64,000 nucleotides of DNA from an uncultured Eubacteriales bacterium (lineage in GTDB: Bacteria; Bacillota; Clostridia; Lachnospirales; Lachnospiraceae), in the NCBI GenBank assembly GCA_900314555.1, contig OMVQ01000003.1, positions 62,001-126,000 on the forward strand. Direction: 5' to 3'. The position numbers were made by a program, and so were the translations under genes. The notes under the pieces are model-generated. The model ran no database searches, had not been told where the DNA came from, and was given only the letters and a program-made list of their open reading frames with translations. Of the stretch, positions 23,538-39,417 are shown piece after piece; the first letter of the stretch is position 1, and every line of letters begins with the position of its first letter.

Positions 23538-23960
23538 ATGAAGAAAATGAACAACAAAGGTTTCTCGTTAATCGAGCTTATTATCGTTATTGCTATTATG
23601 GCAGTATTAGTTGCAATTATTGCACCAAACTTAACAAAATATTTAGGTAAATCTAAACAGCAGACAGATAAGACAAATCGTGAAGAAATCAAGAAACAGG
23701 TTAAAAACTGTATTTCAGAAGCTACAACAGATGATATAGCAGTACAGCAAACAGATGGAACAAAGGCAACATATGTTATTAATGGTGCCAATTGTTCAGC
23801 AAGTACAGGTGGAACAACTGCTTTCGCTAATCTTATTGCAAATGTATTAGATCCTGATAATAATTCGAAGAGTAAAGCTGAGCCAACAAAGACAACTATG
23901 GTTGTAGAAATCACAGGTACTACAAGTGGCGGATATTCTATAGCAGTTGATTTCTCATAA
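23538..23960 (+). CDS. pilA: Major type IV pilin (PilA1)
   Basis: 140 residues. Short basic leader MKKMNNKG, cleavage before Phe, then FSLIELIIVIAIMAVLVAII with Glu at position 5 of the mature protein, the classic class III prepilin N-terminus. The remainder is a small globular domain with two cysteines, about 34 residues apart (KNCISE and NGANCSAS), that could form a disulfide. It has a strong AAGGAG ribosome site after the leader hairpin, so it is probably the main pilin. Confidence 0.92.
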   Translation: MKKMNNKGFSLIELIIVIAIMAVLVAIIAPNLTKYLGKSKQQTDKTNREEIKKQVKNCISEATTDDIAVQQTDGTKATYVINGANCSASTGGTTAFANLIANVLDPDNNSKSKAEPTKTTMVVEITGTTSGGYSIAVDFS

Positions 23961-27582: not shown

Positions 27583-28677
27583 ATGAACTATGAAAAAAAA
27601 ATAAATAGGAACAACAAAGGTTTTACGTTACTAGAGGTATTATTGACGGTTGTTATATTAGCTTTAGTAACGGCTCCCTTTTTAAGTAGTTTCGTTTCGG
27701 CATCCAAAGCAAATCTGAAATCAAAACGCATACAGGAAGCTAATGAATTGGGAGAATATATTATTGAACAGTTCAAAGCGACTTCAGTAGATCAATTAGT
27801 AACAACATATAAATTAACACCAGATTATACATATGTAATTGATTCAGCGACTGGTTCAGCATATAGTAAAAAGTCTACTAAATACACAGGTAAAGTATCA
27901 AAAAATCCTGCTGATGCGGCATTACCGGCTGGTATGAGAAAAGGTTATACAGCGGAACTTACTCTTACACCTGCTAAGAATGTAGTAAATGCAGATTATG
28001 CAATACCGGTAATAGATAATTTAGATAAGAAAGTATGTGCAGTTTTCAATAAAAATATCACTAAATATGATACTTTGTATACAGGTGCATCATCAAGAAA
28101 GGTTACTATTGAAGTTGGAAAAGGTGCTACAAAATATACAGTAAAATTGACGGTAGATATTAAGAATGTTTCGGGCAGTATATTAGGTACTAATTCGATA
28201 ACATGGGAATATGATACTGTACCATCAGTTTATGTGTTGTATAAACCATTAAGCGTAAATGATGAAATTGAAATTAAGAACAATATATATAATGCTGCTG
28301 ATTTTAAAGTGGCAGGTGAAACGAAGAATGTTGGAGTATATATTATTAATCAAAAAGATTCAACCGGGTTGTATTACAATAGTATGCCAGCTTCAAGAGT
28401 TAAAGTATATGAGGCATCTTCAGCTATATCAGGTAATACATACACATTAAATAATCTTATCAGTTCAACTAGTACATCGTCTATGTTAACTAACACAACG
28501 TTATATACTAATATAGGAGATGTTAAGAATAACCTTTCAGCAAGTAAAGATAATGGAAATGTAAATGATACAGTTAAGATGATTAAAATTGATACAGTTT
28601 ATAACTTAGATGTAACCGTTAAATATGAAGGAAAAAAAGTTTCTGATTATAATTCAACGAAAGTTGTCGGAGAATAG
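27583..28677 (+). CDS. Minor pilin, PilV/GspI-like
   Basis: 364 residues with leader NNKG and mature start FTLLEVLLTVVILALVTAPF, which keeps Glu5. The pattern FTLLEVL is typical of GspI/PilV minor pilins. The globular part (about 320 residues) is much larger than in proteobacterial PilV. First of four different minor pilins in a row, which suggests it is part of the initiating tip complex. AAGGGAG ribosome site. Confidence 0.82.
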   Translation: MNYEKKINRNNKGFTLLEVLLTVVILALVTAPFLSSFVSASKANLKSKRIQEANELGEYIIEQFKATSVDQLVTTYKLTPDYTYVIDSATGSAYSKKSTKYTGKVSKNPADAALPAGMRKGYTAELTLTPAKNVVNADYAIPVIDNLDKKVCAVFNKNITKYDTLYTGASSRKVTIEVGKGATKYTVKLTVDIKNVSGSILGTNSITWEYDTVPSVYVLYKPLSVNDEIEIKNNIYNAADFKVAGETKNVGVYIINQKDSTGLYYNSMPASRVKVYEASSAISGNTYTLNNLISSTSTSSMLTNTTLYTNIGDVKNNLSASKDNGNVNDTVKMIKIDTVYNLDVTVKYEGKKVSDYNSTKVVGE

Positions 28678-28692
28678 GAGGTGGCAGAGTCA

Positions 28693-31242
28693 ATGTTTAA
28701 AATTAAAAAGCTAAATAATAAAGGTGATACTTTAGTAATTGTGCTCATAGGTATATTTGTATTATCAATTCTAGGTACACTTATTTTAGGTGTAACTGCC
28801 ACTAACTTATCTATGAAAGCAAATGAAAACAAGAATGAGAAAACATTTTATTATGCAGAGAAAGCTGTGGACGAATTATATGCAGGTATTGGTGAAGAAG
28901 TAATGGATGCCGTACAGGAATCCTATAACGAAGTACTTGTTAATTATGTAAGCTATGGTTCAGGTGTTAATGCAAATGATAAAATGGTAGAATTGCTGAA
29001 TAATAGACTTGTCAAACTATATGATAATAAGAAAATAGATAAAACAGCATCAGGATTAGATGTTAAAAAAGTAATAGAAAGATGTGTAAGTAATGGATAC
29101 ATTAATAGTGTAACCGGATATACATTTAATTGTACAGCACCTACTGGTTATGCTGATGTTGTATTTTATGAGAAAGCAGCTGGAAGTGCAGGATATACTG
29201 AATTAACAGGAAGTGTTATTGATGTAAAAGATATAGATAGAATATCTATAAAAAATATCGAAGTAAAGTGCATATCAAATCAGGGATATTCTTCAAAGAT
29301 TAAGACAGATATAGATATCAATATTCCAGAGTTTAATATTGATTTTACAGATTCAGATACTACTATGGATTTACAGGATTTATTAAAATATAGTCTTATA
29401 TGTCAAGGTGGAAATTTATCAAAAGATGTGGCTAAAGATGGTGCTGTAAATAGAATACATCCGGCAATTGAGATTGCAAATGGTGCCAATGTAACTATTT
29501 CAGGTAATTTGTATGCTGATGGAACAGCATATGATGCAAATAAAGTTACTAATGCGTCAGGAACCGAATATTGGGTTAATAAATCACCAAAGGTAGTTGT
29601 AAATAAAAATCAATCTATAAAAATTGATAATTCAGCTACATTAAGATTGAATTCTAAAATTGTTAACTGTAATAATGATATTGAAGTTGGTGATAACTCT
29701 GGTCTTATCATAAGAAATAGAAATGGTGAGGAGAAAACGGATACAACGGATACAATGCAGTTATTTGCTGATAATATTATTACTAAAGCAGGAACATCTA
29801 ATGCAACAATAGATATTGTTGGTAACACAATGTTAAAAGATGACTTGCAACTTGATGGAAATAAATCTAATGTTAAGATAAAGGGAAATTACTTTGGATA
29901 TGGTTATCGTGATGATGATAATGATGGTAATGAAGATGATACTGGAGCAATAACAGGTTTCGTTGATAAAGGATTAACTACGACCGAGCATGAAAGAAGT
30001 AGTGCAATTGTAATAAACGGTACAGGTGCAAATGTAGATATGTTAGGTGTCAATAAGTTAATATTAGCTGGTAGAGCTTATATTGATTTAGATGCAAGTG
30101 GTAAAAATACATCCTATATGACAGGTGAATCTGTATCATTTAAAGGAAATCAGAAAATGTATCTTGCTGATACAGAGTTATCAGGAAGTAAAGTAGCAGG
30201 AACTAATCCAATATCATATTCTGAGTTATTATCAAAAGCAGGTATAGCAGATGGTGATGAGATTACATATTCAAACTTGAATCTTCAAGATGAGAATAGT
30301 GTTGTGGCAAAGAAAATTAAATTTGACGATATGGTATATTTCTATGTGAAAAATAATAATCCTGTAACACAGACTCAGTATTTTGTTAATGCATACCATA
30401 ATAATATTGATAAAAGAAAGGATTTAAAGACTCAGGTTGAAAAATTAGATGTTCAACAGGTATCATTTTCAAATTCCGTTAAAGCCTATACAGCAGGTGC
30501 ATTAATGCAGGTTGGTAGGACAACATCTAATAATATAGAGATAACAAATCCAGTATCAGGTGCATTAGGAATTACTAAAAATGAAGCACTTAGTTTAATG
30601 GAAGTTATTAAAAACAGACTTAATAATTTAACACCTTCACTTAAGGATGTTAGTGAGAATTATATATTAGGTCAGGATAATACGTTGGTAGCTGGTTCTA
30701 CAAGTGATGAATTACCATTTGATTATCTTATCAATAGAGAGAAATTATATGATAAATGTGGTACTGGAAGATTAACAAAAGAGATAGATTTACATAATCC
30801 GACATCAGGTGTTCTTACAGCTGAAGGCTTAACATCAGACGAGCAGCAACAATTCATAATGAAAGCCAGAGATTTACTTAATAACTATGCAGGTGGATGG
30901 GTTGGTAAAAAATTCGGATTTGTACTCAGTTGTGAGGGTGGTATGGGAAATTCTCCAATTGAATTAGATGCTGGTGTTATAATTACAGATACACCTTATC
31001 AGATAAATAAGAATTTTACCGGTTTAATAATATGCAATGGAAAAATGACAGTAAGTGGAAATGTAAATATTCAGGCATGTGAAGAACTTAGTGAGTTATT
31101 ATTTACATATATTCCATCATTACAAGATGTTTTAGGCCCATCATTTAATAAAAAAGGTGTGGCTGAAGATGGCACAATAGTTAATGTAAATGCACTTAAA
31201 TATACAGACATTGTAGATAAATCAAATTGGCAGAAAGATTAA
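28693..31242 (+). CDS. Oversized PilX/GspK-like minor pilin
   Basis: 849 residues. The leader KKLNNKG precedes DTLVIVLIGIFVLSILGTLI; the residue at +5 is Ile, not Glu, as in GspK, the pilin at the very tip of type II pseudopili. The rest is a long beta-rich region with repeated short strands (ANVTISGNLYADG, NSATLRL-type, SNVKIKGNYFGYG) that looks like a right-handed beta-helix, and an acidic DDDNDGNEDD loop that may bind calcium. AGGAGG overlaps an in-frame GTG at 28681; ATG 28693 fits better. It begins 15 bases after the previous minor pilin. Confidence 0.75.
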   Translation: MFKIKKLNNKGDTLVIVLIGIFVLSILGTLILGVTATNLSMKANENKNEKTFYYAEKAVDELYAGIGEEVMDAVQESYNEVLVNYVSYGSGVNANDKMVELLNNRLVKLYDNKKIDKTASGLDVKKVIERCVSNGYINSVTGYTFNCTAPTGYADVVFYEKAAGSAGYTELTGSVIDVKDIDRISIKNIEVKCISNQGYSSKIKTDIDINIPEFNIDFTDSDTTMDLQDLLKYSLICQGGNLSKDVAKDGAVNRIHPAIEIANGANVTISGNLYADGTAYDANKVTNASGTEYWVNKSPKVVVNKNQSIKIDNSATLRLNSKIVNCNNDIEVGDNSGLIIRNRNGEEKTDTTDTMQLFADNIITKAGTSNATIDIVGNTMLKDDLQLDGNKSNVKIKGNYFGYGYRDDDNDGNEDDTGAITGFVDKGLTTTEHERSSAIVINGTGANVDMLGVNKLILAGRAYIDLDASGKNTSYMTGESVSFKGNQKMYLADTELSGSKVAGTNPISYSELLSKAGIADGDEITYSNLNLQDENSVVAKKIKFDDMVYFYVKNNNPVTQTQYFVNAYHNNIDKRKDLKTQVEKLDVQQVSFSNSVKAYTAGALMQVGRTTSNNIEITNPVSGALGITKNEALSLMEVIKNRLNNLTPSLKDVSENYILGQDNTLVAGSTSDELPFDYLINREKLYDKCGTGRLTKEIDLHNPTSGVLTAEGLTSDEQQQFIMKARDLLNNYAGGWVGKKFGFVLSCEGGMGNSPIELDAGVIITDTPYQINKNFTGLIICNGKMTVSGNVNIQACEELSELLFTYIPSLQDVLGPSFNKKGVAEDGTIVNVNALKYTDIVDKSNWQKD

Positions 31243-31312
31243 TACATCATTATCAATTATATTATTAGACGACAATTATAGAATTATAAATGTAAAGGAG
31301 AGGAATTTTATC

Positions 31313-31843
31313 GTGAATAGAAAGAATAATAATAGAGGATTTTCATTGATTGAAATAATCGTGACTATTGCAATTATGGCGGTTGTTACAGCCGGAGCGG
31401 TTTCAATATATTCATTGATAAATTCCTCAAAATTAAAATCAATGGCGGGTAAAGTTAATGATGCTATTAGTGATGTAAGGTCAGATACCTTAACTAAAGA
31501 AGGCGTATATGGTTATTTGATGAAATATGATAATACAGAAAAATGTTGTACCATATATCTATATAAAGATGGAAATACAGCTAATCCTTATAAGAAGATT
31601 TCATTAGGTAGTTCAGGTCGTTATTATGTAAAAGATAAATCTGGAAATCCATATTACCTTGATAAAGTTGATACAAATGGTCTTAATTTTGAATTTGAGA
31701 AGTCAGATGGCTCGTTTAAATTTATTAAGGCAACATCATCTGGTACAGCAATAGATATGGACAATTACATATATGTTTCATATTCCGGAAAAGTTAAGAA
31801 AATTAAGTTGGTAAAATTAACAGGCAAACATTATATAGAATAG
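31313..31843 (+). CDS. Minor pilin, FimT/GspH-like
   Basis: 176 residues with leader NNRG and mature FSLIEIIVTIAIMAVVTAGA (Glu5 present), followed by a compact domain with short strands, the size of GspH/FimT pseudopilins. Start at GTG 31313 after AGGAGAGG. Part of the four-gene minor pilin set. Confidence 0.82.
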   Translation: MNRKNNNRGFSLIEIIVTIAIMAVVTAGAVSIYSLINSSKLKSMAGKVNDAISDVRSDTLTKEGVYGYLMKYDNTEKCCTIYLYKDGNTANPYKKISLGSSGRYYVKDKSGNPYYLDKVDTNGLNFEFEKSDGSFKFIKATSSGTAIDMDNYIYVSYSGKVKKIKLVKLTGKHYIE

Positions 31844-31883
31844 TAGTTGATTTACAATACATATTAAATGAAAGGGATAGTTT

Positions 31884-32447
31884 ATGAGAAGTAAAAATTT
31901 CAAAGACAATAATAGCGGTTTAACCTTAATGGAATTAATCATTGGTCTTGCAATTTCTCTTATAGTAATTGTAGCTGCATTTTCATTTGTTAATATTGGA
32001 ATCAGCTCATATGATAATACTAACAAGACCACAACTTTACAGCAGGAAGTATCATTTATAAATAATATACTTGGTAATGGTATAAGAAGTGGTTCAAAGG
32101 ATCAAGTAACCATAGTTAAATATTCCACAGGAAATAAGGCCCTTTATACAGGTACAAAAGTATTTTATTATAATGCAAATAAGGAATCTTTGTACATATA
32201 CGAGGGTACTGACTGGGGAACTCCAGCAATCACATCGGATAATGATGATAATCTGGTATCTAAATATGTAAAATCATTTGATGTAAATTATGAGAAAACG
32301 GATACTACAACTACAACACCAACGACATATGATAATGGACTTGAATATACCGGATATTCAAATCTGTTAAATGTTCATATGGAAGTAAAGGTGAAAAATA
32401 AAACGGATGAATCGCAAATTATTTATAATATTAGAAATAATAGTTAA
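31884..32447 (+). CDS. Minor pilin, PilW/GspJ-like
   Basis: 187 residues with leader DNNSG and mature LTLMELIIGLAISLIVIVAA. LTLMELII with a following serine-rich helix is the GspJ/PilW pattern. The cleavage-site residue is Leu rather than Phe, which is tolerated. A Thr-rich run (TDTTTTTPTT, about residues 138-147) links parts of the globular domain. Confidence 0.82.
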   Translation: MRSKNFKDNNSGLTLMELIIGLAISLIVIVAAFSFVNIGISSYDNTNKTTTLQQEVSFINNILGNGIRSGSKDQVTIVKYSTGNKALYTGTKVFYYNANKESLYIYEGTDWGTPAITSDNDDNLVSKYVKSFDVNYEKTDTTTTTPTTYDNGLEYTGYSNLLNVHMEVKVKNKTDESQIIYNIRNNS

Positions 32448-32475
32448 TATTTAGAGATAAGGAGGAAGAAAGAAT

Positions 32476-35400
32476 ATGGCAATTAAGAATTTTATAGTTA
32501 AGAATAAAAAGAAAAGTATTTGTTTTCTTACAGCTTTGATAATATGTATTGTATCGGTTTTTTCAGTTATTATTGTCAAACAGATTAATGCCGGTGTATT
32601 CAGAAAAGATGAGAACGGAAATACAGTTGCAGTTAATGAAATCAAAATTCTTGAAATTGTTGCAAGAGAAGGAGAGCAGGTTCTTGGTTATACTGTAGAA
32701 GGCCAGGAGCCTATTAGTGTTTCTGATATTGAAAGTTATAAGGGAAACATGGATTTAGATGTTACTGATTTTAAGAATGCAACAGGATATGATGTGACAA
32801 AGAAAGCTAATAACGATGGAACATTTAGTTATAAAGTAAATGGTTCAGAACTTAATAGAACATTTAATAATAATGTGCTTGGTGAATCAATGTCAAAAGG
32901 TGAGATACAGGTTAAAGCTATTCAGGCTGCAGATATTAAAGTAAGTGATGTTGAATGGGCTGATTTAATCTATATTAACTCAAATGATTATAACAGTAAT
33001 CTTATGTATTATTATGACCAGTTTGTATGTAATGGTTCTATGGGGATTGAGCCTGGACAACTTGGTCAGAATTATAATGATGTATATTTAGTAAATCAGG
33101 ATAAATTATATAGTTCAATTGATAAGATTATCCGTTCAGTAGGTAATAAGAAAGTTGCGGATACACTTACAAACGAAGATTTTGAATATGTTCAGATTAA
33201 ACTTGCTAATCAGGAAGGAATTAATGCTAATCTTTCTAATTATAAAGAATATAATTTAAGTTATTATAGAGAAAAGTTTGGAAGTCTGAACGAAGAGATA
33301 TCAGATAATATTGAAGAGGGGATTACAAGAATTAATAAATTATTAAGCGATATTAACAGTGAAGCAGAAGAAACAGCATTAGGTAAGTTATATGATTTAC
33401 AAGGCAGAACCCTAACAGATGAAGAAAAGGAAGAAAATAAAGTATATTTCTTACCAGCAGGATTTAGTAATTATTTAGAATTTAATGCAGATAAGTATTT
33501 TAATGAAATTTCTACATATACACTTGGAATTACAGCAACTAATATTAAAGCGATAATTAATAATGTGAATGCAGATGTTTCTGTAGAATCATTAAAGACA
33601 TTACTACAGTATAAGAATAAGGCTGTTCAGGCATTGAATAATCCACCTGTCGATCCGGAAGCAGATAAATACGGATTCACACAGGATGATTATGATACAA
33701 TTTCAGAATGCTTTAAAAAGGTTAATCTTGGAAATATAAATGATGGAATATTATTTAATTATACAGATGCATTCCTAGATGAATCATTTGAATTTACAAC
33801 TGCTAATGCAGATGCTCTAAGAGGACTTATTGAAAGTGTTAATAAGGCTAAACAGGATGAGGTATTAGATGAATTAGCAAATGCAGTTGCAGATGAAGAG
33901 AAAATGAACAATTTCTGTGATAATGCAGAGAGTAATTTTGAATATGCAGATATTAATGGATATGATAAATATTATGTTAATAATTATATAGATGCATTAA
34001 AGCAGCTTACAATAGCAGATGCATTTAAAACAGATGGAAAATGTGATTTAGCTAAAATCGAAAAATTCATTGATGATGTAAATAAGAATACAGAAGTATT
34101 TGAAGATGTTGAAGTATCATGTGATTTAGTATGGAAAGTTGCAGCATCTATTTACAATAAGGCAATGAGCGAAGATGTTGCATTGATGTATAATACAGAG
34201 TTACTTACTAATAAGACACTTGGTGATTATACACAGGATTTAACAGAAGTAGCGAAAGCTAATGAAAATGTTATAAATTTAGCTGACAGAGAAAAAGTAG
34301 ATAATACTAATAACGTTTATAAATTACTTTTATTATTAAGACAGATTAGAGATTCTTACTACTCAGACAATTTAGCTGCTAAGATAGATGTTAGTGGTGT
34401 ATATTATCCAGCAGGATTAGATGGGGAAGCAGAGGGTATTAATAGTTGGAATATGCATACATTTGATGGAAATGATGGAAATGTAAGTGATACATCTATT
34501 AATTACACAAAATATCGTGAGCCGGAAGTTGTTGGTCAGACATATGGTGCTGATGGTACAAAAGGTTTAGCAACTAATTATGTATATAAGAGAATATACA
34601 GCTTTACAGGAGACCAGTTCTTTGGTGGAGCTAAATTCACATCAGATGCTATTTCGAGTGATACAAGTTATATAATTACTGCTAATAGTGGCTATTCGGA
34701 TTCGGCAACAGATTCAATTGTTACTTCGGATTTAGAAAAAGATAATTATATATTAATTAGTGCAGAAAATAATGCAATATATCAGACAAATGATTGCATA
34801 TATGCACATTTCTGGGATGATAATAATATTGAGTATAAGGAAAGATTTGTAAAGGTATCAGGCGAAGTTAAAGGGACAAATGGTAAATATGTATTATATA
34901 AAGTTTGTGTTCCTAAAGGATACAGACATATGCTGATAACTAATATAGCATCATGGACAGGCAATGTTCAAACATCAGATTACATATTACCTTCTGATTA
35001 CAAAGGAAAACTTTTCTATCTTACTGGAACTGGGATTAAACAGGATACAACAGGAAGAAAGAATTATGTATTAGCAGGTATTACTAATTCTAAATTAAAT
35101 GATACAGTGGCATTTAATGGTTCAATGGAAATGAAGTTCTGGGCATACAATAATGATGATGCAAATAATAATTTTACAGCATCATATAGATTGTATGTAG
35201 GTGATACTGTTATTTTCAGTAGTAATGTCGCAGGTTACCATTATCTAGAAGGTACATCTAATGCTGGAAATCAGCCATTTACGATGAACGATACAATAAA
35301 GATAAAAGATGCACAAACAGTAATCGTAGGTGATGATGAGATTAAGTTATATGCTAATGATGGTCAGAACTTCCGCGGACAGCTCCTAAGCCTTTCATCT

Positions 35401-38400
35401 AGTAATAAACTTAAGATAGAACTTAATTATACTGATGTATCAGGTGTAACACATACGAGCAACTATTATTACCAGATGGTAAAACCGACATATGATTTTA
35501 AGGTTACTAACTTTATTAAAGATGGTCAGGTTGAATATGTTAATTTTGCAAATTTACAATTCATATATTCTAATATGACATCTGTACGTTATGCGATAGA
35601 TAATAGTCCGTTTGTTGATATAACATCAAGCAATGAAGTAATAAGCATTGGTGCTGATAAGAATATTGGTGATGTAACTAGACTTATGGTTGCATATACA
35701 CCGGTTGGTGGTGACGAAATTGTTGTTACAACAACATTAAAGAAGTCAGAGTTAGCAAGTGCTGAGCATAATTATTTGTCAACAAATACAGCAACTAATA
35801 GTTCAGGACTTACAAATGATCCTTTATTAACTACTACTGAGAATAGTGCTATAGTTGGTAAGACTAAGGGTGATGTATTAGTATACTTATTAAGAGTATC
35901 CCTTATGAATGTTAATTATCCAATTAATGTATTAGAGGTACAGCCTCAGGCTCGTGCGACTGATTTAGATAATGCTGATATGGCTAAGAAAATTCTTCAG
36001 GCACTTAAGGTTGATATACCAAGTGATATTAACAAGAATTATAAGAAGTATGTAAATGTAACAAGTATGAGTGTAAAAGAGTTTAATACAAGAAATGATG
36101 AGTTGACAGCAACTTATGATTTAATATACTTTGGTATTAACCCTGGATATCAATATGTATCAACAAGTGGCAAGACAAAGGGCAGAACAAAGTATAATGA
36201 TAGTTCAATGGATGGACTTATTTATACAGGTATTGGTGATAAATATACTATTCATTCTGCATTTGGCGGTATGGCTGCATCAGATTACGAATATATTGAT
36301 AATAACTCAGTATATAGAATTTCATCAGCAGTTAATAAAACATTTGGACTTGATGCGAATGGCGATGGTAAAACATCAGGAACTAATATAATTTGTTATA
36401 ATACTTCACAAACTTTTACAATTCATAATTCAGGAACATATAATGGTGAAGAAATTGTAAAAATAGAAAGAAATAATCTGTATATTGGTGTTAAAAACGA
36501 AAGTGCAGATGATCCTAATAAGGTAAATGTTGAGTTAAGAACAAAGGATGATAACAACACATTCTGCCAATGGATAATGCATAGAAATTCAGATGGTACT
36601 GTATCATTTGAAAATTATGGCTATAGATTAAGTAAAAATAAAGCATATTGCATAGATTTGAATAATGCTAATGCACAAAATTGTGAGAATATCCAGATAT
36701 ATCAGAGCGAAAATAACAAGGCACAGAAATGGATTTTGGAAGCAAGAGGAAATAATGTTAATAGTGGAATGTCAGATGAGTTGTATAACACATGGAAGAA
36801 GTATTATACAACAGGTATGACAGGAAATAGTAATTCTTCTTGGAATCTTAATATGTTAGATAGCACTTCAGGACGTTATTATATGAAAAATGAAATGAAG
36901 ACAACAAGAATTGGTGGTAATGATATTACTGTCAGAAAAATGAATGAATTGTTAGAATATCTTAAGAGTGGATATCCGATTTTATTAGCTGATGAGATTA
37001 TGAATTGTGATAATTCAGACATTTATGACGATAATAATGGATATGAAAAAAATAAGAATACATATACTAATAATGTAAGCAGATGGCCTTATGTAGATCA
37101 TAATTCTAAGATGTATAATTTCATTTTACAGGCTAAAGCATTAGGTAAAGATGAAAATGGCAATTATACTGGACTTGATAGTGATGGCAATAAGGTATTT
37201 ATGGATAATAAGTCATATGCAAGTTTGGTATCTATATCTAAAATGAGTGAAGGTTCAAATCCTGAGTATTTGTCATCAGACGATAAATTTGAAGGTGGAT
37301 TAAGATTTGCTTTCAAGAGAGTTGAGATTCTTAACTTTGAGTTTAAGAGTGGACCAAAACAGTATGATGAAGGTGTAAGTGCAGGTAGTACAGGTAAATA
37401 TATTGAAGCTAATGAGCAGGAACATAGTTCATATGATATCAATTTAGGATTTAAAGATGGAGCTAAAATTAATGAAAATCAAATTGATGGAAAATATATT
37501 TATAAAGTATACATAGATAAATCTGGTGTTGGTAAATTTGAAGATGCTGATACAGTAGAATTATCACCTGAATATGAATTAATTAAAGATAATGACGGAT
37601 ATGTAACAGGTGTACGTATATATGGAAATTGGCCAGAGAATATTGAAGGATTTATTCCTTGGAAAGTAGAAGCTGTTGATGCGAATAATGCTGGTCTTAA
37701 ATATACATATATTGGAAATTCAGCATTTAGACGTAAAGAAGCTAAAGATGTCTATGTTTTATGGATTAAAGCACAGGAAGATAAGTGTACATTAGATTTC
37801 TACAATACTGTTAAAAATTATTCAGGTGATTTCAGTAATGATTATAGAATTCATCTTATAACTATGTATTTAACAGATTTTAATGCATATTACAGTAAAG
37901 ACGTAAATTGTGATGAATTCCGTGATAATAAAGATTTGATTTTTACTGCTGATACTTCTAAATTAAAAGTTAAATCTGTATGGAATTATGCAAAGACAAA
38001 ATCAGCTTATGCAAGAAACAATTATAATATGGGTTCTAATGGAAATAGTAAAGAAGATGCAATTGATACAAAAAAATTAAATGAATTGAGTGATAGTACA
38101 GAATTAGATATGATTGTATGTGGTTTCTGTGATTCATATGCTCAGCTTGATATTAATGATATTGCAGCTTTAAAGAATATTGAATATTTTGTTAATTCAG
38201 GTCATTCGCTATTATATTCACATGATAATTCATCATTTAATAGTACAATACACAGATATTCAAAAAATGGATATATTTCTCAGGGTGGAACAGACTGGGC
38301 AAGATATGAGACATATTTCCTTAAGACTTTGGTTGGACAGGATAGGTATGGTATAACAGCTAGTGAGTCTGATTTACCTGAAGAATATGTAAATGCAAGA

Positions 38401-39417
38401 AAGTATTTGGATACAAGTAAAATTGAACAGGCAGATTTACGAGGAATGACAGAAACCTGGACATTTATAAGTAATGGCTGGGGCGGAGATAAGCAAGGTA
38501 ACAAGCTATATGTAAAGGACATTGGTTCAAGTGAATATGTAAATATTAGTACATTTGCAACTACTACAAAGATTCTTCAGATGAATAAAGGTCAGATAAC
38601 GGCATATCCATTTGTTTTACCTGATTCTTCTAAGTTTTCAGTAGCAACTACACATACGCAGTATAGTGAATTGAATCTGGAAGATAGTGAAGTAACAGTA
38701 TGGTATGCACTTGATTCACAACAGAATACAAAGAATATATATTATTATACTAAGGGTGATGGTTGCAACAACTATTATATTTATTCAAAAGGCAATGTAA
38801 CTTACACAGGTGCCGGACATTCGAAGATTTCAGGAATTGATGAGCAGAAATTATTCGTAAATACATTGGTTGCTTCAATTAAGACAGGTAACTATGCACC
38901 GGTTGTTAAGGTTAATAATGCAATCAGTATAACGACGACAGAGAAAATCATTAATCATTATAAAGATAGTGGTGCAACAGTAACATTTACAGTTTCAGAT
39001 TATGATTTGAAAGACAATGAAGAAAATGGATTCTCAGATTTCAGAATCTACATAGATGTAAATGGAAATGATATATATGATGAAGGTGATATTTTAATTA
39101 ATGATCCAGATAATGCAGACATTTCTGATAATACATATATGAGAGATACAAATGATGAAAATGTTAAAATTAATATTACAAAAGACAATTTAAGGAATAA
39201 AGTAACTTATTCATTCTATTTGTCAGATGGTGATATTAAAGCGTTAGAGGCAAGATTAGGTAATAAGATAGAAAACTATAATATTGTAGTTGAAGCTGTT
39301 GATAATGGTTACTTAAAAGCTAAAGATGATGTATACAGAGAAGCTACTAAGATTAAGGCTTCAGATAAGTTTAAGTTAAAAGAAAGAGAAGAAGCTAAGT
39401 TATTCGACTTAAATTAA
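32476..39417 (+). CDS. Giant membrane-anchored surface protein, candidate pilus tip adhesin
   Basis: 2313 residues, not recognised as a whole. Basic start, then one hydrophobic segment (about 14-37) acting as signal peptide or anchor. Residues 150-640 are acidic and largely helical; 650-1150 look beta-rich. A segment opening INVLEVQPQA (about 1150) with YDLIYFGINPG echoes KILEIVAREGE and DLIYIN near the N-terminus. Residues 1310-1425 resemble a ricin-type lectin domain with QW repeats (CQWIM, about 1364; AQKWIL, about 1416). DMIVCGFCDSY and GHSLLYSHDNSSF suggest an amidotransferase-like fold. Calcium-type loops are at 1293 (DANGDGK) and 2194 (DVNGNDIYDEGD). No LPXTG motif. It may match an uncharacterised surface DUF (DUF5057 is one I would test). 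Last gene of the pilus locus, 28 bases after the PilW-like gene. Confidence 0.7.
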   Translation: MAIKNFIVKNKKKSICFLTALIICIVSVFSVIIVKQINAGVFRKDENGNTVAVNEIKILEIVAREGEQVLGYTVEGQEPISVSDIESYKGNMDLDVTDFKNATGYDVTKKANNDGTFSYKVNGSELNRTFNNNVLGESMSKGEIQVKAIQAADIKVSDVEWADLIYINSNDYNSNLMYYYDQFVCNGSMGIEPGQLGQNYNDVYLVNQDKLYSSIDKIIRSVGNKKVADTLTNEDFEYVQIKLANQEGINANLSNYKEYNLSYYREKFGSLNEEISDNIEEGITRINKLLSDINSEAEETALGKLYDLQGRTLTDEEKEENKVYFLPAGFSNYLEFNADKYFNEISTYTLGITATNIKAIINNVNADVSVESLKTLLQYKNKAVQALNNPPVDPEADKYGFTQDDYDTISECFKKVNLGNINDGILFNYTDAFLDESFEFTTANADALRGLIESVNKAKQDEVLDELANAVADEEKMNNFCDNAESNFEYADINGYDKYYVNNYIDALKQLTIADAFKTDGKCDLAKIEKFIDDVNKNTEVFEDVEVSCDLVWKVAASIYNKAMSEDVALMYNTELLTNKTLGDYTQDLTEVAKANENVINLADREKVDNTNNVYKLLLLLRQIRDSYYSDNLAAKIDVSGVYYPAGLDGEAEGINSWNMHTFDGNDGNVSDTSINYTKYREPEVVGQTYGADGTKGLATNYVYKRIYSFTGDQFFGGAKFTSDAISSDTSYIITANSGYSDSATDSIVTSDLEKDNYILISAENNAIYQTNDCIYAHFWDDNNIEYKERFVKVSGEVKGTNGKYVLYKVCVPKGYRHMLITNIASWTGNVQTSDYILPSDYKGKLFYLTGTGIKQDTTGRKNYVLAGITNSKLNDTVAFNGSMEMKFWAYNNDDANNNFTASYRLYVGDTVIFSSNVAGYHYLEGTSNAGNQPFTMNDTIKIKDAQTVIVGDDEIKLYANDGQNFRGQLLSLSSSNKLKIELNYTDVSGVTHTSNYYYQMVKPTYDFKVTNFIKDGQVEYVNFANLQFIYSNMTSVRYAIDNSPFVDITSSNEVISIGADKNIGDVTRLMVAYTPVGGDEIVVTTTLKKSELASAEHNYLSTNTATNSSGLTNDPLLTTTENSAIVGKTKGDVLVYLLRVSLMNVNYPINVLEVQPQARATDLDNADMAKKILQALKVDIPSDINKNYKKYVNVTSMSVKEFNTRNDELTATYDLIYFGINPGYQYVSTSGKTKGRTKYNDSSMDGLIYTGIGDKYTIHSAFGGMAASDYEYIDNNSVYRISSAVNKTFGLDANGDGKTSGTNIICYNTSQTFTIHNSGTYNGEEIVKIERNNLYIGVKNESADDPNKVNVELRTKDDNNTFCQWIMHRNSDGTVSFENYGYRLSKNKAYCIDLNNANAQNCENIQIYQSENNKAQKWILEARGNNVNSGMSDELYNTWKKYYTTGMTGNSNSSWNLNMLDSTSGRYYMKNEMKTTRIGGNDITVRKMNELLEYLKSGYPILLADEIMNCDNSDIYDDNNGYEKNKNTYTNNVSRWPYVDHNSKMYNFILQAKALGKDENGNYTGLDSDGNKVFMDNKSYASLVSISKMSEGSNPEYLSSDDKFEGGLRFAFKRVEILNFEFKSGPKQYDEGVSAGSTGKYIEANEQEHSSYDINLGFKDGAKINENQIDGKYIYKVYIDKSGVGKFEDADTVELSPEYELIKDNDGYVTGVRIYGNWPENIEGFIPWKVEAVDANNAGLKYTYIGNSAFRRKEAKDVYVLWIKAQEDKCTLDFYNTVKNYSGDFSNDYRIHLITMYLTDFNAYYSKDVNCDEFRDNKDLIFTADTSKLKVKSVWNYAKTKSAYARNNYNMGSNGNSKEDAIDTKKLNELSDSTELDMIVCGFCDSYAQLDINDIAALKNIEYFVNSGHSLLYSHDNSSFNSTIHRYSKNGYISQGGTDWARYETYFLKTLVGQDRYGITASESDLPEEYVNARKYLDTSKIEQADLRGMTETWTFISNGWGGDKQGNKLYVKDIGSSEYVNISTFATTTKILQMNKGQITAYPFVLPDSSKFSVATTHTQYSELNLEDSEVTVWYALDSQQNTKNIYYYTKGDGCNNYYIYSKGNVTYTGAGHSKISGIDEQKLFVNTLVASIKTGNYAPVVKVNNAISITTTEKIINHYKDSGATVTFTVSDYDLKDNEENGFSDFRIYIDVNGNDIYDEGDILINDPDNADISDNTYMRDTNDENVKINITKDNLRNKVTYSFYLSDGDIKALEARLGNKIENYNIVVEAVDNGYLKAKDDVYREATKIKASDKFKLKEREEAKLFDLN

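Follow-up and report, generated by a model that had tools for sequence, protein, structure and literature searches.

A giant DUF5057 protein encoded with the minor pilins of Lachnospiraceae type IV pili: a candidate pilus-tip effector

A pilus locus that closes with four minor prepilins and a giant gene

The subject of this analysis is a 64,000-nucleotide stretch of DNA (hereafter the window; assembly GCA_900314555.1, contig OMVQ01000003.1, positions 62,001 through 126,000) from an uncultured Eubacteriales bacterium, and in particular a complete type IV pilus (T4P) locus whose last gene encodes a protein of 2313 residues, the giant. The window is part of a 142-kb contig in a 2.66-Mb genome, the nearest named relatives of which are Lachnospira-like Lachnospiraceae. 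The locus (19252 through 39417) has all its genes in one direction, in the order PilB, PilT, PilC, two PilA-like genes, PilD, PilM with a PilN tail, a PilN/O-like gene, four minor prepilins, and the giant. In the part from PilB to the PilN/O-like gene (19252 through 27496, plus strand), PilM_2 and PilN match at 84.7 and 23.8 bits; the names PilB, PilT, PilC, PilA, and PilD were given by reading the sequences, not by profile scan. The two PilA-like major pilin genes stand in tandem at 23538 through 24412.

An earlier note on this DNA had read the last five open reading frames (ORFs) as prepilins with GspI-, GspK-, GspH-, and GspJ-like N termini followed by a 2313-residue protein, and all five lie exactly where it had put them, on the plus strand. 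The I-type prepilin (27583 through 28677; 364 residues, GspI/PilV-like N terminus), the H-type (31313 through 31843; 176 residues), and the J-type (31884 through 32447; 187 residues) score 30.3, 35.6, and 25.2 bits against Pfam N_methyl, so that three of the four pilins pass its cut-off of 21.2 bits; these three also carry class III signal peptides (G↓F/L...E5 with a hydrophobic helix; ↓ marks the cleavage site). Profiles of the H- and J-type prepilins match solved pilins with E values of 1.6e-9 and 1e-4, and that of the I-type, which has weak N-terminal matches to ComGE/PilV/GspI, matches their N termini. The H, I, and J heads are mostly unmatched in the Protein Data Bank (PDB), and NCBIfam matches are confined to the N termini. 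The K-type prepilin (28681 through 31242; 853 residues) has a large head, the leader G↓DTLVIVLIG, and a PilX_N score of 18.5 bits, below the cut-off of 25.5. It is without Glu5, an absence typical of K-type minor pilins.

The gene for the giant, which we regard as a candidate pilus-tip effector, follows at 32476 through 39417 (plus strand). Only 28 bp separate it from the J-type gene; this gap contains a good ribosome-binding site and is free of hairpins, in agreement with the earlier statement that no terminator intervenes. A strong hairpin with a U-run, resembling an intrinsic terminator, lies 3' of the giant (39493 through 39545; −26.8 kcal/mol, z −4.9). Membership of the giant in one operon with the minor pilins is well supported. 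A perfect 12-bp hairpin between the PilN/O-like gene and the I-type pilin (27503 through 27529; z −5.9) has no U-run on the plus strand and is perhaps an RNA-processing or attenuation point between machine genes and tip genes. Right after the giant, the DNA from 39731 through 45267 carries two genes of the natural transformation set, one comM-like (Mg-chelatase) and the other dprA, followed by genes of topA and codY size and by genes of flagellar type.

A profile search of 32476 through 39417, which the earlier note had suggested, assigns the giant to Pfam DUF5057 (PF16480) with 97.5 bits against a cut-off of 27.9; the match spans residues 1482 through 1917 (36919 through 38226; E = 1.4e-27). 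By Pfam profile scan this is the single DUF5057 gene of the source genome. DUF5057 is a family without assigned function and was named in no paper found by our literature search.

Association of the giant with minor pilins across genomes

DUF5057 was found in 32 of 150 Lachnospiraceae genera surveyed. Inspection of 20-kb neighborhoods shows nearly the same gene order, PilA-PilD-PilM-PilN/O-I-K-H-J-giant, from locus to locus. Scanning named genomes yielded 79 loci, of which 11 were cut by contig ends and left out; in 64 of the 68 informative loci the minor pilins lie directly upstream of the giant (K-H-J-giant), among them those of Roseburia faecis, Lachnospira multipara, Lachnoclostridium phytofermentans, and Catonella morbi. 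The giant of Lachnospira multipara (L127) is a naturally short version of 858 residues. The median gap between J and giant is 19.5 bp, overlaps included, and we therefore take them to form one operon. Two of the four unlinked cases are fragments (L132 and L140); the others are an orphan second copy (L139) and a giant beside comM/dprA (L163). The possibility raised earlier, that such genes might often stand away from pilus genes, is thus not borne out.

As a marker of T4P loci we used a K pilin profile built from 23 orthologs, in place of PilM_2, which had too many FtsA-type matches. It matches 44 of the 150 genera: 31 genera have both DUF5057 and K, 1 has DUF5057 without K, 13 have K without DUF5057, and 105 have neither. 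Of the five-gene co-occurrence proposed for survey in the earlier note, that of giant and K is seen in 31 of 32 DUF5057 genera. The corresponding Fisher test (p ∼1e-20) is uncorrected for phylogeny and overstates the case, as genera are not independent; the pattern is still nearly absolute. The sole DUF5057 genus without K (G025) has a truncated locus (L039), in which the C-terminal piece of a giant comes immediately after PilB, PilT, and PilC and all the intervening genes are missing.

Beyond the Lachnospiraceae, DUF5057 turned up in a few further Clostridia and in three Bacilli genomes, and every case over the cut-off is part of a T4P locus. The Bacilli gene is divergent and sits between pilB and the minor pilins. 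The link is therefore not mere shared operon order; the association has survived rearrangement. The Bacilli proteins (L084 through L086) are ∼1540 residues long, are encoded divergently from pilB, and end in NRY or DRY. Three proteins of 1000 to 1200 residues (L063, L064, L065) that match only the last ∼45 DUF5057 positions and have no pilus context were rejected, and a genome with a sub-cutoff match and no T4P genes (G191) was not counted. Four Pseudobutyrivibrio-like loci (L153, L166, L167, L168) carry tandem duplicate giants behind one set of minor pilins, possibly alternative tips.

Export signal, domain make-up, and C-terminal tail of the giant

No prepilin motif was found at the N terminus of the giant, which has a Sec-type signal instead: residues 1 through 39 (32476 through 32592) form a probable cleaved signal peptide with a hydrophobic core (3.04 at residue 18) and the site INA↓GVF, a call made by reading the sequence and not by SignalP. 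Close relatives keep a [V/I/T]-x-A↓G/S/D site after the hydrophobic stretch (VIA↓GVF, TLA↓GLF, ILA↓GVF, TKA↓DVF, TNA↓SVY), while the core itself varies. LPxTG is found in none of 72 giants and a second hydrophobic segment in one; the window giant has the single N-terminal stretch. Export is well supported, and these features make a cleaved signal peptide likelier than a membrane anchor, so that the earlier description of the protein as anchored is probably wrong. If uncleaved, the long hydrophobic N terminus would anchor the giant and make a cell-wall sorting signal unnecessary, and the giant could then be a surface protein whose only tie to the pilus is co-regulation, such as a scaffold in the envelope for pilus passage or a wall-remodeling partner. 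We consider this improbable, given the signal-peptidase-like A↓G site kept in close relatives; in addition, Pfam scans found no wall-binding or enzyme domain in the giants, and a surface scaffold would leave their near-invariant free C terminus, described below, unexplained.

The AlphaFold model of the C-terminal half (mc6d12c683709; pLDDT 80.5, pTM 0.82) reads to us as a ThuA-like domain, a β-sandwich, a second ThuA-like domain, and one or more C-terminal β-sandwiches. The first of these, domain 2 (35920 through 37005), is interrupted by an insert and has the motifs VLEVQP ... YDLIYFG ... GNDIT ... SGYPILLA; domain 3 (37744 through 38877; pLDDT mostly >85) has the signature NNYYIYSKGN...GH...KLFVNT; and the C-terminal β-sandwich region spans 38902 through 39387. 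Domains 2 and 3 are homologous repeats (hhalign probability 96.7, E = 4.6e-10). The N-terminal half was modeled less well (m01db61a90ceb; pLDDT 73, pTM 0.47), and at this pTM its domain arrangement was not relied on. It contains domain 1 (32638 through 34425), with an ILEIVP motif, a large helical insertion at residues ∼197 through 510, and a weak profile likeness to domain 2, and a stalk-like region of tandem β-sandwiches (residues ∼757 through 1090; 34744 through 35745) with local Foldseek matches to RTX adhesin extender, SraP, cadherins, and Sas6 at low overall TM. We do not claim domain 1 as a third ThuA-like repeat (probability 54 against domain 2, no support against domain 3). Sequence and fold searches of the PDB found no homolog of the giant core, only local resemblances with low TM-scores; with the multidomain model these matches were mostly to β-sandwiches. 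The calcium-type loops noted earlier are present, at 1293 (DANGDGKT) and 2194 (DVNGNDIY). A further loop, YxDx[ND]xDGxF, recurs in 35 of 72 relatives and is degenerate in the window giant (1681 DKSGVGKF).

The ThuA label rests on the order of the motifs and on sub-threshold Pfam matches, seen in 4 of 47 members. Two homologous repeats of this kind, together with the comM-like and dprA genes directly downstream, would suit an enzyme or sugar sensor that uses its ThuA-like domains for catalysis or ligand binding, with the pilus serving uptake (including that of DNA) or sensing. Such a role appears very unlikely: the ThuA similarity stays below threshold, no catalytic residues were identified, and comM-dprA flanks a giant without pilus genes at L163 and is absent beside many other giants, so that this neighborhood may be positional only.

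The insert in domain 2 is R-type-lectin-like (residues 1289 through 1440; 36340 through 36795). RicinB_lectin_2 scores 35.4 bits for these residues alone and 22.3 in the whole protein (cut-off 25.6); there is one true QxW, and model confidence is low. The ricin-type segment of the earlier note is thus real when taken alone, marginal in the whole protein, and absent from all other giants examined. A lectin as the defining feature of the giants was accordingly rejected; what is conserved are the two ThuA-like domains, the β-sandwiches, and the C-terminal tail. In a Roseburia relative (L142) a CBM26-like starch-binding match reaches 28.0 against a cut-off of 28.1. These two marginal cases are thin evidence; they fit a conserved scaffold with exchangeable glycan-binding parts, and we infer that the giant may bind glycans.

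At its extreme C terminus the giant ends in EEAKLFDLN (39388 through 39414). A tail of the type L-F-x-L-D/E/N is present in 70 to 76 of 79 relatives, depending on the pattern; by position, L(−5) occurs in 58, F(−4) in 67, L(−2) in 75, and Asp/Glu/Asn(−1) in 64 of the 79 giants. The strict form LFxL[DNE] is carried by 43 giants and by none of the 779 neighboring ORFs, and the four background matches to the loose pattern are all paralogous giants or pieces of giants. This near-invariant tail is loosely modeled in the monomer (pLDDT ∼58), as expected of a docking peptide, and by conservation, model, and analogy we think that it probably docks onto the minor-pilin complex.

A candidate tip effector and its counterparts

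In diderms, HIJK tip complexes bear a very large non-pilin protein, PilC/PilY1, described as "absent in monoderms" (PMC9934059). Docking of PilX and PilY1 via β-strand complementation has been predicted, and the C-terminal half of PilY1 is conserved and its N-terminal half variable (PMC13190605). The giant shares much with these proteins: it is very large, exported, not a pilin, and encoded with minor pilins, and the family has a conserved C-terminal half, variable binding modules, and calcium-type loops. For PilY1, docking on the K/X subunit by β-strand complementation is predicted, and the same docking mode is a natural hypothesis for the tail of the giant. The two differ in that the giant occurs in monoderms, has a conserved free C-terminal tail, and has ThuA-like repeats and β-sandwiches in place of the C-terminal seven-bladed β-propeller (PF05567) that defines PilY1/PilC. 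A Pfam scan found no PF05567 match in the giant, and with its C-terminal half modeled as ThuA-like domains and β-sandwich, membership in the PilY1 family was rejected; a genome-wide PF05567 search was set aside as uninformative, having given no matches anywhere, controls included. The PilY1 analogy of the earlier note therefore holds as a likeness of role and not as one of family: our best reading is that the giant works like PilY1 as a non-homologous monoderm counterpart, docked, we suppose, by its C terminus on the minor-pilin complex.

The modular minor pilins PilB and PilC of Streptococcus sanguinis are likewise monoderm T4P effectors with a predicted tip position, and PilC carries a lectin module (PMC9934059). 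Each of the two is itself a pilin and has a class III signal peptide, which the giant lacks; the giant is thus not a modular pilin. Among non-pilins, TcpF/CofJ of type IVb pili are Sec-exported soluble proteins of pilus operons that bind a minor pilin, as we propose for the giant. They are small, dock by their N terminus, and are released. The giant might similarly be secreted by the T4P machine, riding out on a tip minor pilin and being released to act at a distance from the pilus as a colonization factor or matrix protein. The signal peptide and the minor-pilin operon fit this, the Foldseek resemblances include matrix-type β-sandwiches such as RbmA, and TcpF is reported to be a product of the pilus operon that interacts with a minor pilin (PMC9565799). 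Secretion of this kind nevertheless strikes us as rather unlikely: no sequence relation between the giant and TcpF/CofJ was seen, with 800 to 2850 residues and a conserved C-terminal tail the giants do not resemble the small factors, and a permanent partner is the better match for strict co-occurrence with the large K head.

Since the giant stands beside the minor pilins, and the pairing recurs in many relatives and in distant Bacilli, it probably forms an adhesive T4P tip. We thus favor, as the probable though far from certain explanation, a Sec-exported non-pilin tip effector that is tail-docked on minor pilins and carries variable binding modules. Export and cleavage of the signal peptide would leave the giant outside the membrane, where its L-F-x-L-D/E/N tail would probably dock on the I-K-H-J complex that primes assembly, with the large K subunit as its most likely site. 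Addition of major pilin below would then carry it out on the pilus tip; the ThuA-like and β-sandwich scaffold would present variable modules (here the R-type-lectin-like one) for binding a surface or glycan; and retraction by PilT would pull the cell to the bound surface.

Several points weigh against a tip effector. The lectin-like insert is unique to one protein with a marginal score, and the tail differs in Bacilli and some other Clostridia. The orphan second copy (L139) and the giant beside comM/dprA (L163) lie away from pilin genes, and seven genera (G004, G044, G073, G078, G101, G116, G120) have a K pilin and no giant, which is therefore not needed for building every such pilus. A folded protein of 250 kDa would, moreover, have to pass the thick monoderm wall on the pilus.

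Work on monoderm T4P calls PilC/PilY1 absent and looks to modular pilins (PMC9934059), a gap that the giant, if we are right, would fill; our literature search, which covered few subscription papers, found no description of a non-pilin monoderm counterpart of PilY1. We give about even chances to the broader proposal that monoderm T4P have their own class of non-homologous giant tip adhesins, an independent solution to the PilY1 role with ThuA-like repeats, β-sandwich stalks, a K-binding L-F-x-L-D/E/N tail, and lineage-specific glycan-binding inserts. The present work ties DUF5057, of which the giant is a member, to T4P, and a tip role would give this family a function. The nine-residue tail would then be a handle on how tip proteins dock. 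The carriers are common gut bacteria (Roseburia, Lachnospira, Agathobacter, and Butyrivibrio-type genera), and such a tip would hint at how abundant gut commensals hold mucus or plant glycans.

In six of the 13 genera that have K and lack a DUF5057 match, a different protein occupies the slot of the giant; in the rest no protein does. Two of these proteins (L095, L097) match domain 1 of the giants (1e-15 and 3e-13) and end in LFDLD or LFNLE; two (L088, L090) share only motifs with giants; one (L183) is a diverged giant of 2847 residues; and one (L184) is cut by a contig end. Among the other seven genera, the K pilins of G004, G044, G073, G078, G116, and G120 match the profile in the N-terminal part only, leaving G101 as the true exception. 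This pattern, recognized post hoc, suggests a link between the giant and the C-terminal half of the K head. Several giant-less loci carry enlarged pilins (J of 416 to 862 residues), as though a pilin had taken over the effector role. At one T4P locus without a giant (L091, 6223 through 13650, minus strand) the I-type prepilin has 2475 residues, a modular pilin of extraordinary size. J-type minor pilins of 676 to 1057 residues with extra domains occur in about one-quarter of loci (L031, L037, L050, L092, L175 through L182); an ordinary J has ∼200 residues, and the enlarged ones gave one weak CofB_C match.

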